Source: Cytophagaceae bacterium (GTDB lineage: Bacteria; Bacteroidota; Bacteroidia; Cytophagales; Flexibacteraceae). From it: 64,000 bases of DNA. This document shows positions 47,623-55,195 of the stretch, piece after piece. The translations under genes were made by a program, and so were the position numbers. Below the pieces are notes generated by a model. It made no database searches. It saw only the letters and a list, made by a program, of their open reading frames with translations, and was not told where the DNA came from. Position 1 is the stretch's first letter; every line of letters starts with the position of its first letter. The DNA lies in contig JAIYDB010000038.1 in assembly GCA_027487695.1 (NCBI GenBank), forward strand, positions 1 through 64,000, in the 5' to 3' direction.

Positions 47623-48516
47623 TTGAAACCTAACCAAAAGTCGTTTTTTAGCTCTGCCAAAGAACAAAGGGCGGCAATGGGGTTATTGGTTTTGGTGGTA
47701 TGTTTTTTACTTATCAGGTGGGGTATCAGTTCATTTACTGGTAGCAAACCAAATACTATTCTAATTACAGAAAGTGCCGAGGCTTTAGCCAAAAGTGGCA
47801 CCAATCAAACTAAGGCCAATTCCATAGAATACAATCCTTCCACTTTTGATCCTAATACCGCCAGTATAGAGGTATTACAGCAACAAGGCATCCCATTATG
47901 GTTGGCAAAACGCATAATTAATTACCGAACCAAGGGTGGTAAATTCAGAACCAAGGCAGACTTGCAGCGGATTTATGATTTTCCCGATTCGCTCTTTCAA
48001 AAGGTGGTTAGTTATATTCAACTGCCTGATTCTGCCGAAAAAAACTACACCAAATATCCCCAAAAGGAATACTACAAGCGATACCCAACCCACACAAACA
48101 AGCAAGTTTGTGCAACAGGCTTTAACATTAACAAAGCTGGCTTGGCTGAACTTGACCAACTGCCCGGTATTGGCGAAGCCCGTGCTAAATGGATATTGGA
48201 TTACCGTGACCGATTAGGTGGCTTTACAGATTTGCGTCAGCTTGAGGATATGGTAGGTTTAGATAGTCTTTCGTTAGCCTCGTTAAAGCAGTACGCCCAA
48301 ATTTTTCCTGACGATTTACCGAGAAAGCTTAACATTAACCTGATTGACTTAGAAGAATTGGCCAAACACCCCTACCTAACCCGTAGAAAGGCAAAGGCAA
48401 TTATCAATTTCAGAACGCAACACGGAGCTTACCAAGATATTGACGAGCTTACCTCAGTTCGGGTATTAACTGATAAGGAGCTTGAAAAAATACGTCCCTA
48501 TTTAAGTACGGAATAA
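47623..48516 (+). CDS. Membrane-anchored protein with three ComEA-like helix-hairpin-helix domains
   Basis: The 297 residues have an N-terminal helix (AAMGLLVLVVCFLLIRWGISSF) that anchors the rest outside the cytosol, a short linker, then three tandem ComEA-type HhH units. They begin FDPNTASIEVLQQQGIPLWLAKRIINYR, FNINKAGLAELDQLPGIGEARAKWILDYR and LNINLIDLEELAKHPYLTRRKAKAIINFR. Such units bind DNA backbone, as in the competence receptor ComEA. A TTG start is used; no ATG precedes the membrane helix. Eighteen bases downstream begins a second HhH protein. A DNA-uptake or envelope scaffold role is an inference. Confidence 0.85.
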   Translation: MKPNQKSFFSSAKEQRAAMGLLVLVVCFLLIRWGISSFTGSKPNTILITESAEALAKSGTNQTKANSIEYNPSTFDPNTASIEVLQQQGIPLWLAKRIINYRTKGGKFRTKADLQRIYDFPDSLFQKVVSYIQLPDSAEKNYTKYPQKEYYKRYPTHTNKQVCATGFNINKAGLAELDQLPGIGEARAKWILDYRDRLGGFTDLRQLEDMVGLDSLSLASLKQYAQIFPDDLPRKLNINLIDLEELAKHPYLTRRKAKAIINFRTQHGAYQDIDELTSVRVLTDKELEKIRPYLSTE

Positions 48517-48533
48517 ATTAACCGAGCGAGAAA

Positions 48534-50345
48534 TTGTTGTTAGGAGGTCTTTTCAATTCTTGTTGGCATAGTTGGTTGGTTTTTATCTGGCTAATAATTT
48601 TTCCGCTAATAAGTTTGGCGCAAGACCGTTACTTAGCTGATGAGGACTTTATACACACTACTGGCAACCAATTGAACTTGAATTGGCAAAATGAGAAAGA
48701 AGCCATTTATAGTCCACTTTGGGTGAATATCAACACAGCAACCGAAGAAGAATTACGCACCCTCGGAATACCTGACGAAGCCATAAGATCTGTTTTAGAA
48801 TACCGAAAAAACTATGGCAACTTTACCTTCATAGAGCAATTGCAAGGTTTAGAAGGTTGGGATCCTATCACCTTAGCGGCGTTACTCCCCTACCTCACCG
48901 TGGGTAATACGCAGCAAGAGGCATATTGGCAAGCCATCCGATATCCTAAACATTATCAATGGGCGGGAGCTACGGGACTTACACATAATGGTAAAAGTTA
49001 TACACAAATCAGTAATATCCGATTTAAGGTAGGGAACCCAAGTTCTTTGGTGCGATACGGTTTACAATTAAGACGGTCCTACTCCCAAGGCGAAGCCACG
49101 CATAAAGGCAGCTTTTACTTTCAGGCAAAAAATACGCTTTATCCTAAAATACCTGTGCAACAAGTAACCATCGGTCATTACAGACCTGATGTTGGCTTAG
49201 GCCTGAACTTAGGTGGCAATGCAGGTTTTACCCCTTGGTTAGGTTTAGCAGGACGATTATATAGTAGAAATGCCTCTGTAGTGCCGTGGCAATCGGCATT
49301 TAGTGATTATGCCTTACAAGGTTTGGCGGTTTCTGGCAACATTCAAAAAACACAATATATCAGTTGGTTACATATCAATACCCAGCCTTTATCAACAGCA
49401 AACGATTCCTTAGATAACCTCAGCATAAGACCAATTGGAGCCTTAGGTACTGTGGTTCAGCCTGGTTTACTTTTGGTACACCCTATTAAAAATGGGAACA
49501 TATTCGGCACTTACTTTCAAAATGGAAGTCAATACCAAACTGGGATAGGAGCAACTGTAGCCAACCAAAACCTTACCCACAACTTTGAAGCAGGCTTCAA
49601 AACTAAGGATGCCGCATTTATGTACTCCATGTTTTACCCTATCAATAAGCGATTTACACTTTCCACTTCTGCTAGGGCGTTTAGTGCTAATTGGCGAAAT
49701 AGCTTAGGTAATCCTTACGCGCAAAGCAGTAGTTTAGGGGGCGAAAAAGGGTGGTATTCAGTTCTTCAATATGAACAAAGTCGCAATAGAGTCTACTGGT
49801 TCACCACCGATATTTACCAAAGCACCAGAGGTTTAACTTTTACCCAACCAGCAATTCACGCCAATTTAAGTCAGCAAAATGGGACCAATATCAATAGTAG
49901 TCTGCAAGCACCTATTTCTAAAAACGGCGTTGAGTTATTATGCAAATTAGCCATCACCAAAATCCTATCTGAGGCATTTACCCTTGCCTTTCTGGTAAAT
50001 ATCAGAAAGCCAGCTACTAATGAAAAAACCAAAACCGTAATTGCCAACGGCTACGCCACCGAACTACGCTACCACAAAAACCGCCACCAGCTGCGAGTGA
50101 GAGTAACGGTATGGTCGGCACCTGAATTCAGGAATGCTGTTTACTTACCTGAACCAGATATCCAATTCTTTAACCGCACCATTGCTGCATACGAAGTAGG
50201 TAACCGCATAGCCCTTTTGTATAGGTACCAATTAGAAAACGGCGCAGTTTGGGAAAGCAAACTTGTATTAAACCAATTGACGAGAACTGAGAACCGATCA
50301 CCTTTGACTTTGGAGTTGCGGACAGGGGTTTGGTTGAGAAGATAG
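48534..50345 (+). CDS. Signal-peptide protein with HhH domain and outer-membrane-barrel-like region
   Basis: The 603 residues begin with a signal peptide (LVFIWLIIFPLISLAQ), a short linker, and one ComEA-type HhH (VNINTATEEELRTLGIPDEAIRSVLEYRKNYGNFTFIEQLQGLEG, about 65-110). About 450 residues of alternating strands follow, with aromatic girdles and Gly/Asn turns, for example GLYGLAV-like repeats and VTIGHYRPDVGLGLNLGG. That pattern is typical of an outer-membrane barrel. A TTG start is inferred. It is probably in one operon with the three-HhH protein. The combination of a DNA-binding-type domain with a barrel is notable; the function is unknown. Confidence 0.75.
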   Translation: MLLGGLFNSCWHSWLVFIWLIIFPLISLAQDRYLADEDFIHTTGNQLNLNWQNEKEAIYSPLWVNINTATEEELRTLGIPDEAIRSVLEYRKNYGNFTFIEQLQGLEGWDPITLAALLPYLTVGNTQQEAYWQAIRYPKHYQWAGATGLTHNGKSYTQISNIRFKVGNPSSLVRYGLQLRRSYSQGEATHKGSFYFQAKNTLYPKIPVQQVTIGHYRPDVGLGLNLGGNAGFTPWLGLAGRLYSRNASVVPWQSAFSDYALQGLAVSGNIQKTQYISWLHINTQPLSTANDSLDNLSIRPIGALGTVVQPGLLLVHPIKNGNIFGTYFQNGSQYQTGIGATVANQNLTHNFEAGFKTKDAAFMYSMFYPINKRFTLSTSARAFSANWRNSLGNPYAQSSSLGGEKGWYSVLQYEQSRNRVYWFTTDIYQSTRGLTFTQPAIHANLSQQNGTNINSSLQAPISKNGVELLCKLAITKILSEAFTLAFLVNIRKPATNEKTKTVIANGYATELRYHKNRHQLRVRVTVWSAPEFRNAVYLPEPDIQFFNRTIAAYEVGNRIALLYRYQLENGAVWESKLVLNQLTRTENRSPLTLELRTGVWLRR

Positions 50346-50387
50346 GTGCTAAAACACTAACTTGCGGTGATTTTTATTCACCTATTT

Positions 50388-51563
50388 ATGGAAACAGCAA
50401 ACGATTGGGTTTCATTGATATACACTCTAGTTGGATCTCACGCTATTTTCTTTGGGCTAATTGCCTACTTACAGAAAAAGGATACTAAGTCAATACCTTG
50501 GTTTAGTCTGTTTCTTTGGATTTTTGGTTTACCATCTATCTCATGGTTGCTACACGCCACACCAGTCTTTTACAGCTTACCAAGGTTTGCCTATTGGCCT
50601 ATTGGGTTATACTTCTGTGTGATGCCCACTTTTTATCTATACGTTAAAAGCCTAACGCAGATTATAACTTTTAAAGAAGTCCGAAAGCACTTGTTTTTTC
50701 CAATTCTGGAGTTTTGCAGTATGCTAACCATCTGTTTGCTACCTAGGGATATTTACGATAAGTTCATTTCTAGCGGAGCAAATCAAACTTGGGGGCTTGC
50801 CTTTGTTAGCGTACTTGGAGCGTATAACTTGTTCTATTGCTTCATTACCTTCAGACTATCAAACATCAGCATTAGGAAGTTTGAGAAAGTGTTTATTAAT
50901 GATTCTGTAAACTTATTCCAATGGACAAAGAGACTTTCAATATTATTAGGAATCCTTTATGGTTTAGAATTATTTCTCAGTTTCCCAATTACGCTCAGAA
51001 TAAATTATAGCATTGCAGTAGTAATAGCTGCAATACTTAACCTCGTATTTGTACTTACAGTATTGTTTGCAAGTTATAAATATCTGTTTAGCACTAATAA
51101 TCAATGGAACCAGCTAGCAGAGCTAGAGGAATCTAGCCCAGAATATTATGAAAGTGATACAGTTAAAGAATCCATATTGGACTCTAACCCAGCCTTCGTG
51201 ATTAATGAGAAGCTGGTAAAGCAACTCGAATACTTACTAGAAAATGGTGCCTACTTAAACCAAGAGGTATCGCTAATATCTTTAGCTCAAGAACTGGATG
51301 TTACTCCTAAAGTGCTTTCCAAAACCATTAGCGAAGCAAAAGGACTAAACTTCTCTGGCTTAATAAATGAGTACCGAGTTAACAGAGCAAAAGTATTGCT
51401 TAGCGGCAATGAACACGAATATCTTACTATTGAAGGCATAGGTTCGGAAGCTGGATTCCCTTCTAAATCTACATTTTTTTCAGTCTTCAAAAAGCATACT
51501 GGACTTACTCCTAAAGAGTTCCAGCTTTCAAAAACCAATGATTTAGTCCAGAAAAAGGGCTAA
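50388..51563 (+). CDS. Membrane-embedded AraC-family regulator
   Basis: The 391-residue protein starts with six or seven hydrophobic helices (about 8-235), including LIYTLVGSHAIFFGLIAYL and YSIAVVIAAILNLVFVLTVLFASYKYLF. After an acidic linker it ends in an AraC-type double helix-turn-helix (ISLAQELDVTPKVLSKTI and GSEAGFPSKSTFFSVFKKHTGLTPKEFQ). Such regulators sense a signal in or outside the membrane and bind DNA from the cytosolic side. The ATG at 50388 is preferred over a GTG at 50367. It lies directly upstream of the T9SS adhesin gene, which is its likely target. Confidence 0.88.
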   Translation: METANDWVSLIYTLVGSHAIFFGLIAYLQKKDTKSIPWFSLFLWIFGLPSISWLLHATPVFYSLPRFAYWPIGLYFCVMPTFYLYVKSLTQIITFKEVRKHLFFPILEFCSMLTICLLPRDIYDKFISSGANQTWGLAFVSVLGAYNLFYCFITFRLSNISIRKFEKVFINDSVNLFQWTKRLSILLGILYGLELFLSFPITLRINYSIAVVIAAILNLVFVLTVLFASYKYLFSTNNQWNQLAELEESSPEYYESDTVKESILDSNPAFVINEKLVKQLEYLLENGAYLNQEVSLISLAQELDVTPKVLSKTISEAKGLNFSGLINEYRVNRAKVLLSGNEHEYLTIEGIGSEAGFPSKSTFFSVFKKHTGLTPKEFQLSKTNDLVQKKG

Positions 51564-51661
51564 ATCCTTTTTCTGGAATCCTTCTTTGTAGTTCTCATTA
51601 TCTTGCTTTGAGTCCTTTGGGTAGTTTTGTAATACAACTTAATTACCCACTCCTTCACTCA

Positions 51662-54600
51662 ATGAAAAACGTGTTTACAACCAAGAATTTTTTATTTATT
51701 CTCCTAACGTTGGTAGGAGCTTTTCTCTATCCAAGCATAAAAGTGCATGCTGAAGGAAGTAAACAACTAACCCGTTTTGGGGTAGAAAGCCGAATACTTT
51801 TCGGGTTAAGAAACTTTGCCAGATTCAATTCTTTAGACACTAACGCCAGGCTTTGTTTTACTATTAAAAGTACCCAAGAAAGAGTGTATTTCGGTTTTGG
51901 GCTAGCAAGAAATCAGGATCAATTTAACGGATCAACAAACTTTAGCACATTTTTTAGAGTTAAAGATTCCTTTGGAAATATTGTAAGGAATACACAACGT
52001 TTACCTAGAACCTCGGCCGAGCCTGGCTTTATACAAAATAGTACACAGTCTTCCCCAAGCATAATTCAGGTAGGTGGGTACGATCCTGGGATTTCATTTA
52101 TCCCACCAAGCCCTGGAACCTACTATATTGAATTAACAGCAGATACAACAAGACCACAAGGAACCTTTAACCTTGAACATTTTGATGTTACAGTAATCAA
52201 TTCTAATACAAATCAAGAACAAATAGGACGCTTATGGAGTAGGCAATGGAGTATAACGGCTGGTGGTTTTAACAGACCTACTAGGGCTGAAATGTTTATT
52301 TATTCGGCTGATAGCGTGGTTACTAAAATTGACTTTAATGGAATGGAGCCCTTTAACTTTTTTATAGGCGCAAATTCTAAAGGGGTCAATTTCACTTCCA
52401 ATCCTCTTATAAATAGAAAGTCAAGACAAGGTGAAGCCATAAACCCAGATTATCTAGTTTTCTTGCAAAATCCTGATAGCACAATTTGGCCTAATGGTAC
52501 CGACTTTATTAGGTTTTTAGAGCAACCTGTTTTAGCCTTTTGTCCAAACAGGGGATACCGTCTAAAAATTTCTGTAAACAAAGGGCAAGAAGCTGATATT
52601 TACCTTGAGTTTAACGGCATAGCTGGTTACCAAGAAGGTACCTCAGATAGGAAGTTAACCGTTTCCTTACAAGCTGGTGTTAACCTAATCCCATTTGATG
52701 GTAGAGACGGTTTAGGTAATTTGTTAACAAATGCTATGCTTGTAAATGTTCCTATTGAATTAGTAGCTTACAGAGGTGTTACCCACCTGCCTTTATTTGA
52801 TGTAGAAAACAATGCGAACGGGTTTATCATTAGCCTAGTTAGACCCTTAACTGGAAATTTGAGAGTCTTTTGGGACGATACAAATTTACCAGACGGATTA
52901 GCAAATCTTTCTGGCTGCATTGGTTCTTGTCATTCATTTCCTAGCCCATTGTTTGGAAACGATAATACTATAAATACTTGGTGGAATACAGGTACCTATT
53001 TACCACTTACCAGTACTTTGATTTTGGATACACTATGCCCAACAATAAGCCTTTCAGCCAATGTGGTACGAGGAAGTTATTGTTCAGATTTAGGATATGC
53101 AATTCCAATTTATTCTGGTTATTCTGGCCGAGTTAAAATTACTTGGATAGAACAAGAAACAGGAATTGAATATCCAGGCTTTGGTCGGGATGAACGTTTA
53201 ATCTTTTCTTATTTTACCCCTTACTTATTGATAGCAAAGGATTTATACACTGAATATTCTGATACAGTTATTGTAAGCCCACTACCTCAGCCCGATTCAA
53301 TCGTTTTCTATAACGCCGAAGTAGTTGAAGCACCTTTTTGTAGTTATGGAGTTGCTGACGTAAGGATATTTGGTTTGTCGTCTGTTCAATATAGATGGAG
53401 AGACTTAAGCTCAGGGCGAATTTTACCTGCACCAGATACATTCCAGCAACTTTCTGCATATCCTGGCAGATACAGACTTATAGCTACAAGCCTTGAGTTT
53501 GGCTGTAAAGATTCACTTGATTTTGAGATACTTGGAAGTGGTTCAGCAGTAGATGTTTCTCTTAATAGATTAGTCCAACCAAGGTTCTGCTCTGATTCAG
53601 GAATGGTAAAATGTTCAGTAAACTTCCCAGTAGAGCAAGCGGGCTTCAGATGGAAAAATTTGGAAACTGGAGCTATTCTATCAACTACTTCAGATTCTTT
53701 AAAAGCTTTGCCAGGGAGGTATAGAGTTATAGCTTTTAAGTTAAGTGAAGGGATAAATATCTGTTCAGATTCCTTAGATGTTGAAATTATAAAAAGTGAT
53801 TCAATTAAAACTTTGGCGAATATCGTTCAGCCAAATACTTGTGGGAGCCTAGGTAGAGCCTACATACAACTTGTTGATTCTGTTGGTAATTACTCATTCA
53901 CTTGGAAAAGAAGAGCCGATCAGGTTGTAGTAAATAACTGTTGTAATAGGGTTGAACTTCCTGAAGGTGAATATGTTGCCTTAATAAGGAATGAAACCTT
54001 TGGTTGTTCGGATTCAACCTTAATCAAGATTATATCGCCAGGCAATCCTAACATTGAATTAGACTCAATAGTTCAACCAACCTGCACTAATCCTAAAGGT
54101 CTGTTGAAAGTAAAAGTTAGCACTGGTTCTACCTCCTTAATTTATAGATGGAGGAGATTACCTGATGGTCTTGTCTTGCCAGATACGGCTCAAAACAGGA
54201 TTAAACTTAATCCCGGAGTTTATAGATTAGTGGTTAAAGATTTAGGCGGTATTTGTTCGGATTCTATTGACCTCACTTTAAATGAACCAGTTATACCCAA
54301 TATTGATTTTTCTGGGCTACCAGACAGTACTTGTATAAGTAGTGGATCGTTTAATCTGAGTTCTGAATTTGCAGGTGGAAGGTTTAGTGGCACTGGGATA
54401 TCAGGAAACGTATTTACTCCAACAAAAGATGGTGTTTTTGAAATAACCTATTCCCTAAATTTGGGATCTTGTAGGGTAAGCAGAATTAGAACAATTAAAG
54501 TAAATTCTATCCCCAATTCTAATTTTTCCATTCCAGATAAAGTCTGCTTAAACAGCGAACCAGTTAGTTTAGTGCCAGACCAAATTGGTGGTTTATTTGA

Positions 54601-55195
54601 AGGTGGAAATGTAGTTTCAGCGTCGTATTTTCCTAATAGCATAGGTACTGATTCTGTGAAATACAGCATTTCAATTAATGGTTGTAGTTCAACTTTAACG
54701 AAAAAAATCAATGTAATTCCCAATCCTTCCTTAGAAACGTCAAATACTGAATTGGAAATTGAAAAGGGAAATTCAGTTAATCTGAATGTGCAAAGTGATG
54801 GAAAGGTCAAATGGACTCCTTCAACTGGGCTAAGTACCGATACAGGCTTAAATGTAATCGCATTCCCTCTTTCTGATACTACTTATACCATCATAGCTAC
54901 CAATGATTTAGGATGCTTTAAAACGTTAACAATCAAAATTCGAGTGAATACCAATATTAAAATTCCTAATGTATTCACCCCAAATGGCGATTTAGTGAAC
55001 GAATACTTTGCCATAAAAAACTTGCCCGATAACTCCAATCTTTCCATATACAATAGATATGGAAGTTTGGTTTATGAGAAAAATGGTTATTCAAACGATT
55101 GGTCCGCTAACAACTTACCTGAAGGGATGTATTACTATTTATTAAGTACAAGTGGCAACCAAACTTTTAAAGGTTGGGTACAGGTGATGAAGTAA
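51662..55195 (+). CDS. Large T9SS type B cargo protein with tandem Ig-like repeats
   Basis: The 1,177-residue protein has a signal peptide (FLFILLTLVGAFLYPSIKVHA) and an N-terminal domain of about 450 residues. At least four Ig-like repeats follow, opening with VQPxxC-type segments (LVQPRFCSDSG, IVQPNTCGSLG, IVQPTCTNPKG) and containing GRYR-like strands. Two more repeats (ISGNVFTPTKDGVFEITYSL type) and a PKD-like unit (WTPSTGLSTDTGLN) lead to the CHU_C gliding-associated domain (IPNVFTPNGDLVNEYF to FKGWVQVMK). That terminus is a T9SS type B signal, so the protein should reach the cell surface. Adhesion is inferred from repeat architecture. The ATG at 51662 gives the best signal peptide. Confidence 0.88.
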   Translation: MKNVFTTKNFLFILLTLVGAFLYPSIKVHAEGSKQLTRFGVESRILFGLRNFARFNSLDTNARLCFTIKSTQERVYFGFGLARNQDQFNGSTNFSTFFRVKDSFGNIVRNTQRLPRTSAEPGFIQNSTQSSPSIIQVGGYDPGISFIPPSPGTYYIELTADTTRPQGTFNLEHFDVTVINSNTNQEQIGRLWSRQWSITAGGFNRPTRAEMFIYSADSVVTKIDFNGMEPFNFFIGANSKGVNFTSNPLINRKSRQGEAINPDYLVFLQNPDSTIWPNGTDFIRFLEQPVLAFCPNRGYRLKISVNKGQEADIYLEFNGIAGYQEGTSDRKLTVSLQAGVNLIPFDGRDGLGNLLTNAMLVNVPIELVAYRGVTHLPLFDVENNANGFIISLVRPLTGNLRVFWDDTNLPDGLANLSGCIGSCHSFPSPLFGNDNTINTWWNTGTYLPLTSTLILDTLCPTISLSANVVRGSYCSDLGYAIPIYSGYSGRVKITWIEQETGIEYPGFGRDERLIFSYFTPYLLIAKDLYTEYSDTVIVSPLPQPDSIVFYNAEVVEAPFCSYGVADVRIFGLSSVQYRWRDLSSGRILPAPDTFQQLSAYPGRYRLIATSLEFGCKDSLDFEILGSGSAVDVSLNRLVQPRFCSDSGMVKCSVNFPVEQAGFRWKNLETGAILSTTSDSLKALPGRYRVIAFKLSEGINICSDSLDVEIIKSDSIKTLANIVQPNTCGSLGRAYIQLVDSVGNYSFTWKRRADQVVVNNCCNRVELPEGEYVALIRNETFGCSDSTLIKIISPGNPNIELDSIVQPTCTNPKGLLKVKVSTGSTSLIYRWRRLPDGLVLPDTAQNRIKLNPGVYRLVVKDLGGICSDSIDLTLNEPVIPNIDFSGLPDSTCISSGSFNLSSEFAGGRFSGTGISGNVFTPTKDGVFEITYSLNLGSCRVSRIRTIKVNSIPNSNFSIPDKVCLNSEPVSLVPDQIGGLFEGGNVVSASYFPNSIGTDSVKYSISINGCSSTLTKKINVIPNPSLETSNTELEIEKGNSVNLNVQSDGKVKWTPSTGLSTDTGLNVIAFPLSDTTYTIIATNDLGCFKTLTIKIRVNTNIKIPNVFTPNGDLVNEYFAIKNLPDNSNLSIYNRYGSLVYEKNGYSNDWSANNLPEGMYYYLLSTSGNQTFKGWVQVMK

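Follow-up and report, generated by a model that had tools for sequence, protein, structure and literature searches.

HhH-barrel proteins of Bacteroidota as a likely outer-membrane entry for DNA, seen beside a triple-HhH receptor gene in a Cytophagaceae genome

Two genes on the forward strand of a Cytophagaceae contig encode envelope proteins with HhH domains. Within the window, by which we mean the whole 64,000-nucleotide stretch analysed, the first open reading frame (47623..48516) encodes protein 1, of 297 amino acids, and the second (48534..50345) encodes protein 2, of 603 amino acids; both are intact and start with TTG. A preliminary description of this DNA had the two genes adjacent and 18 bases apart; the adjacency stands, and the spacing is 17 bases. 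Upstream of the protein 1 gene and on the opposite strand is mutL, recognized by eye from its translation. The gene for an AraC-type regulator with a hydrophobic N-terminal half (50367..51563, forward strand) starts 21 bases 3' of the protein 2 gene; it could be co-transcribed with the pair, or possibly control it. Beyond this gene, at 51608-55195, the window encodes a protein of 1195 aa that carries a CHU_C signal for type IX secretion (Pfam, 1.4e-21). The domain content of the pair is far beyond chance; its adjacency is not kept in relatives.

Protein 1 has three HHH_3 stretches (Pfam, E = 2.7e-44), preceded by a hydrophobic membrane anchor read from the sequence at about residues 19–38 (47677..47736, forward strand); translation could alternatively begin at an in-frame ATG at 47680. 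Domain search placed all three HhH units on the forward strand: unit 1 at 47842..48018, with a net charge of about +4 by charge count; unit 2 at 48112..48294, where alignment reveals a canonical LPGIGEARA hairpin; and unit 3 at 48325..48504 (residues 235–294), which matches PDB entry 8dss, ComE operon protein 1, at 1.2e-6. The protein scores 97.4 bits against TIGR00426, above the cut-off of 53.1, and 111.6 bits against the NCBIfam comE full-protein model, under the curated cut-off of 152.35, so we class it as a three-unit relative rather than a classical ComEA. An N-terminal hydrophobic stretch followed by HhH units is common to the aligned relatives of protein 1, with topology judged by inspection. 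The anchor and the three HHH_3 units agree with the original proposal that this protein holds three ComEA-type HhH units outside the inner membrane. By analogy, protein 1 is very probably an inner-membrane-anchored, periplasmic ComEA-like DNA receptor, a role we consider well supported.

Protein 2 begins with a signal peptide ending in ...PLISLAQ (48534..48623, forward strand), assigned from sequence and found at the same position in relatives. Residues 64–122 (48723..48899, forward strand) form an acidic HhH domain (HHH_3, E = 1.4e-7; pLDDT about 84–95). The following stretch of about 480 residues (48903..50342, forward strand), with a net charge of about +26, was assigned as a barrel region from the structural model, Foldseek and profile matches; it has no match in Pfam, NCBIfam or PHROGs, and protein 2 as a whole has none among the phage families of PHROGs. 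The AlphaFold2 model of protein 2 is weak (pLDDT 62, pTM 0.55). Foldseek searches with this model returned almost exclusively outer-membrane barrels, with a best E of 5.6e-7.

We defined an HhH-barrel family by alignment A4 as proteins with a signal peptide, an HhH domain and a barrel of ~24 strands. Its members are ~700 aa long, and protein 2 is only ~21% identical to them. Since an earlier profile match had been partly circular, the window protein being in the alignment, we excluded that protein from the profile. The profile built without it still found protein 2, at 3.7e-15 for the whole protein and 1.5e-4 for the barrel part alone, while none of 200 shuffled barrels was reported; hhalign gave 7.5e-5, with a probability of 62%. 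On these scores, membership of protein 2 in the family is likely but distant. No closer relative was found among 11 genomes of its own taxonomic family.

A typical family member, from Marinoscillum sp. (locus L115), gave a confident model (pLDDT 86.6, pTM 0.83) with a signal peptide, an HhH domain and 24 strands of at least nine residues. Its structural matches are outer-membrane barrels at low TM-score, which indicates a barrel, yet one belonging to none of the solved families. A sequence search of solved structures in the PDB matched the HhH regions only and gave no sequence relative of the barrel. The description of protein 2 as a signal peptide and one HhH unit joined to a barrel is thus borne out by the HHH_3 match, the barrel-type Foldseek matches and the family model; structure prediction, which had been suggested as a check, is weak for protein 2 itself and confident for the ~24-strand barrel of the family.

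The HhH domain of the barrel family differs from that of a DNA receptor. In ComEA, the GxG of the first HhH hairpin holds DNA. In the barrel family this GxG is gone, replaced by an invariant L and a nearly invariant Q, and protein 2 reads LGIPDEAI at the first-hairpin position. The domain is also acidic (mean charge −2.4 for the family, −5 for protein 2), whereas the barrel region is basic (family mean +19). These features make DNA binding by the barrel's own HhH doubtful, and the earlier picture, in which domains binding DNA flank the periplasm on either side, is not supported.

Both proteins are widespread. Of the 59 genomes in the order set, 54 have triple-HhH homologs and 55 have barrel homologs. 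Every one of the 37 genomes of the class, those of the window's own order among them, gave a match to the triple-HhH profile; beyond the class, the profile mostly picked up either the barrels or short frames with a single HhH. In a sample of the phylum, 114 of 148 Bacteroidota genomes carried the barrel. The presence of ComEC was tried as a phylum-wide correlate and set aside as uninformative, all 148 genomes carrying ComEC. Three genomes of the order, of about 1.5 Mb and 87–93% complete, lack triple-HhH protein, barrel and ComEC alike; all three belong to one family (f8), so this joint absence counts as a single event.

Conserved adjacency of the triple-HhH and barrel genes was considered and rejected: the two lie apart in all relatives of the order that carry both. 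Neither a triple-HhH gene nor comEC was found near the barrel at any of 80 named loci, and we found no conserved neighbourhood of the triple-HhH gene within the order. The preliminary description had treated the two genes as one unit, but the barrel's usual neighbour in relatives is a PorV/PorQ-like gene. This gene, of ~280 aa, is directly upstream of the barrel in 62 of the 80 named loci, where the two usually overlap by 4 bases, and it is upstream in 65 of the 80 phylum genomes having both. It is nearly confined to barrel carriers (80 of the 82 parsed). Its product scores as a member of the PorV/PorQ family at 4.3e-15, which is below the curated cut-off. The window genome lacks this partner, and the protein 1 gene occupies its place. 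The conserved unit is the barrel with its PorV-like partner, with operon links to comEC, and not the pair; the window, where barrel and receptor happen to stand together, is an unusual and divergent example.

Two variants of the barrel neighbourhood were observed. Genome G088 encodes a 926-aa protein (L175:6560-9340, minus strand) with a PorV-like end, whose gene overlaps the start of the barrel gene; its extra ~640 residues have no Pfam match. In genus g5 of the window's family there is a second divergent barrel, of 731 aa and ~25% identical to the family representative (L044:3482-5677 and L046:4976-7171), which has no PorV-like partner and adjoins a gene with a LON-substrate domain. As with protein 2, its change seems to have gone together with loss of the partner.

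The genomic link to DNA uptake is with comEC. In one family (f23), three genomes (L157, L158 and L159) have the PorV-like, barrel and comEC genes in an unbroken row on one strand, with overlaps or with gaps of at most ~80 bases, and in a fourth (L156) barrel and comEC overlap; the ComEC domains were confirmed for L157. This barrel–comEC operon occurs in that single family, 4 of the 114 barrel-bearing genomes. In two genomes of another family (f27; L160 and L161), comEC is directly adjoined by a triple-HhH gene; the encoded proteins, of 360–387 aa, carry three to four HhH units. The barrel profile matches HhH domains as well; these two genes encode HhH receptors, not barrels. The receptor gene L161:5782-6945 (minus strand) overlaps comEC and has four HhH units, not three. 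Each pair among triple-HhH, barrel and comEC is thus joined somewhere, in f23, in f27 or in the window. For a genome of 4,000 genes, we roughly estimate the chance of lying directly beside one named gene at about 1 in 2,000 per lineage.

Association with competence genes, comEC included, had been set beforehand as a check on the pair. The outcome was divided: each protein family has a link to DNA uptake, the barrel by its operon with comEC and the triple-HhH protein by abutting comEC, while conservation of the pair was not found. The preliminary description had named as evidence against a DNA-handling role a C-terminal region with no predicted barrel, or a pair that relatives lack and that has no link to competence; we found instead a barrel fold, both proteins in nearly all relatives, and links of each to comEC.

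That description knew of no characterised system of this composition, but genetic work in other Bacteroidota supplies close parallels. In Riemerella anatipestifer, RA0C_RS02645, a protein with three HhH, is essential for transformation together with ComEC, DprA, ComF and RecA, as are the outer-membrane or surface proteins RA0C_RS04915 and RA0C_RS04920 (DUF5689) and a DUF1343 protein; pilus homologs were not found there (PMC8459023). Transformation of Porphyromonas gingivalis requires ComEA and ComEC; the route of DNA to the periplasm is stated to be unknown, a pilus is not involved, and no T2SS or T4SS is known (PMC11532111). We count this unexplained outer-membrane step in both organisms in favour of the barrel as an entry.

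Strong DUF5689 homologs, taken as those with E below 1e-40, were found in 18 of 20 Bacteroidia genomes without a barrel and in 3 of 17 with one (n = 37; Fisher 1e-5, phylogeny ignored), although most of the 20 barrel-less genomes belong to one family, so that this p overstates the case. Within one family holding both states (f24), three genomes have DUF5689 and no barrel, two have the barrel and no DUF5689, and one has both, which is not significant alone. The pattern is consistent with one outer-membrane entry having taken the place of another. This anti-correlation and the co-loss with comEC both rest on few independent lineages.

We think it probable that the two genes encode successive stations of a DNA uptake path for natural transformation that works without a pilus, with the barrel as the outer-membrane entry; no pilus genes were noticed in the barrel loci. 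This reading draws on the domain content, the fold computed for the family, conservation across the phylum, the comEC operons and the joint absence with comEC. Its steps and its direction are ones we infer. Double-stranded DNA would cross the outer membrane through the barrel, which elsewhere works with the PorV/PorQ-like partner. The barrel's HhH domain, at the periplasmic mouth, would be a gate or docking site rather than a strong DNA binder. The HhH units of protein 1 would then bind the incoming duplex, pull it by binding, as a ratchet, and pass it to ComEC, which would import one strand. We judge the barrel itself a likely entry, counting in its favour the 24 strands, as in pilus ushers, and the basic charge. 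The family spans the phylum and some of its members share an operon with comEC, so the barrel may be the door for DNA that has long been missing in Bacteroidota. There is perhaps an even chance of a wider generalization, in which the single-chain, ~24-strand HhH-barrel with its PorV-like partner is the pilus-free translocon for double-stranded DNA of most Bacteroidota (in the wide GTDB sense), with other outer-membrane proteins taking its place in lineages that have the Riemerella-type DUF5689 system.

Known PorV/PorQ relatives belong to type IX protein secretion, and the barrel could accordingly serve proteins instead. Barrel and partner would then form a type IX-like transporter of proteins or glycans, the HhH would be a protein–protein module, and the comEC links would be incidental. 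The partner's kinship to PorV and the acidic HhH, devoid of the hairpin-1 GxG, make this the main rival to DNA entry, and the Foldseek matches do include protein-exporting ushers and TonB receptors. We nonetheless consider it unlikely, given the contiguous comEC operon in four genomes, where no secretion gene was noticed, the absence of the barrel jointly with comEC, and its scarcity where DUF5689 is present.

A second doubt concerns protein 2 alone. At ~21% identity its function may differ from that of its family, with protein 1 remaining a ComEA-type receptor, protein 2 diverged to another job, and their adjacency an accident of rearrangement. The pair is adjacent in no other genome checked, and the PorV-like partner is gone. 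Against such a drift, the frame is intact over 603 codons, family-conserved residues are still present, and the new neighbour is another DNA-uptake gene rather than a random one; we put its probability about as low as that of the type IX-like transporter.

Less probable again is that the barrel imports extracellular DNA mainly as a nutrient, or imports a nucleic-acid breakdown product, with transformation as a by-product. The same genomic evidence would apply, uptake for food and for recombination sharing the outer-membrane step, but we noticed neither nuclease nor nucleoside-transport genes among the barrel's conserved neighbours, and the comEC link points to strand import. Export of DNA by the pair, for biofilms or conjugation, is very improbable: a two-membrane path with DNA-binding units could in principle run either way, but ComEC, its genomic partner, is an importer, and no relaxase, coupling protein or T4SS genes were noticed near the loci read, so the export half of the original uptake-or-export proposal is not favoured.

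For outer-membrane DNA entry in Bacteroidota, a step that work on Riemerella and Porphyromonas leaves without a pilus or secretion-type machine (PMC8459023, PMC11532111), a conserved barrel in a comEC operon is a concrete candidate. Were the proposed entry real, it would give a pilus-free route of natural transformation to a phylum whose members are common in gut, soil and sea and exchange resistance genes.

Several known systems resemble parts of the proposed path. RA0C_RS02645 of R. anatipestifer resembles protein 1 by description: another Bacteroidota protein, it has three HhH, the last at 236–301 (235–294 in protein 1), and is predicted to be periplasmic, but unlike in the window no barrel gene is beside it as far as PMC8459023 reports. 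ComEA of Bacillus and Vibrio cholerae, and PGN_0421 of P. gingivalis, are likewise periplasmic or membrane-anchored HhH receptors for DNA that act with ComEC, although classical ComEA has one HhH unit where protein 1 has three. RA0C_RS04915 and RA0C_RS04920 share with the barrel a proposed role in outer-membrane DNA entry in Bacteroidota lacking a pilus; they differ in having no HhH reported, RA0C_RS04915 is reported only in Flavobacteriaceae (PMC8459023), and in occurrence DUF5689 proteins and the barrel largely complement each other. The PilQ secretin with its type IV pilus performs the outer-membrane step of transformation, but as a multimeric ring moved by the pilus, whereas the barrel is a single chain with no Pfam match to a secretin domain. 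The PorV-like partner resembles the PorV/PorQ family of the type IX secretion system and differs from it in its sub-cut-off score and in adjoining the barrel and, in f23, comEC. Like the barrel, FimD/PapC ushers and TonB-dependent receptors are large single-chain outer-membrane barrels, the ushers with 24 strands, but identity to the barrel is about 10% and TM about 0.3–0.4; Pfam searches of the barrel gave no match to usher domains, a TonB plug domain or a TonB receptor, and TonB-dependent receptors have 22 strands against 24 in the barrel-family model. We found no report of this barrel in the literature, subscription journals and preprints being outside the scope of that search. The triple-HhH protein is of a periplasmic receptor type already known from Bacteroidota; the phylum-wide HhH-barrel family, a candidate for the entry, is unnamed.
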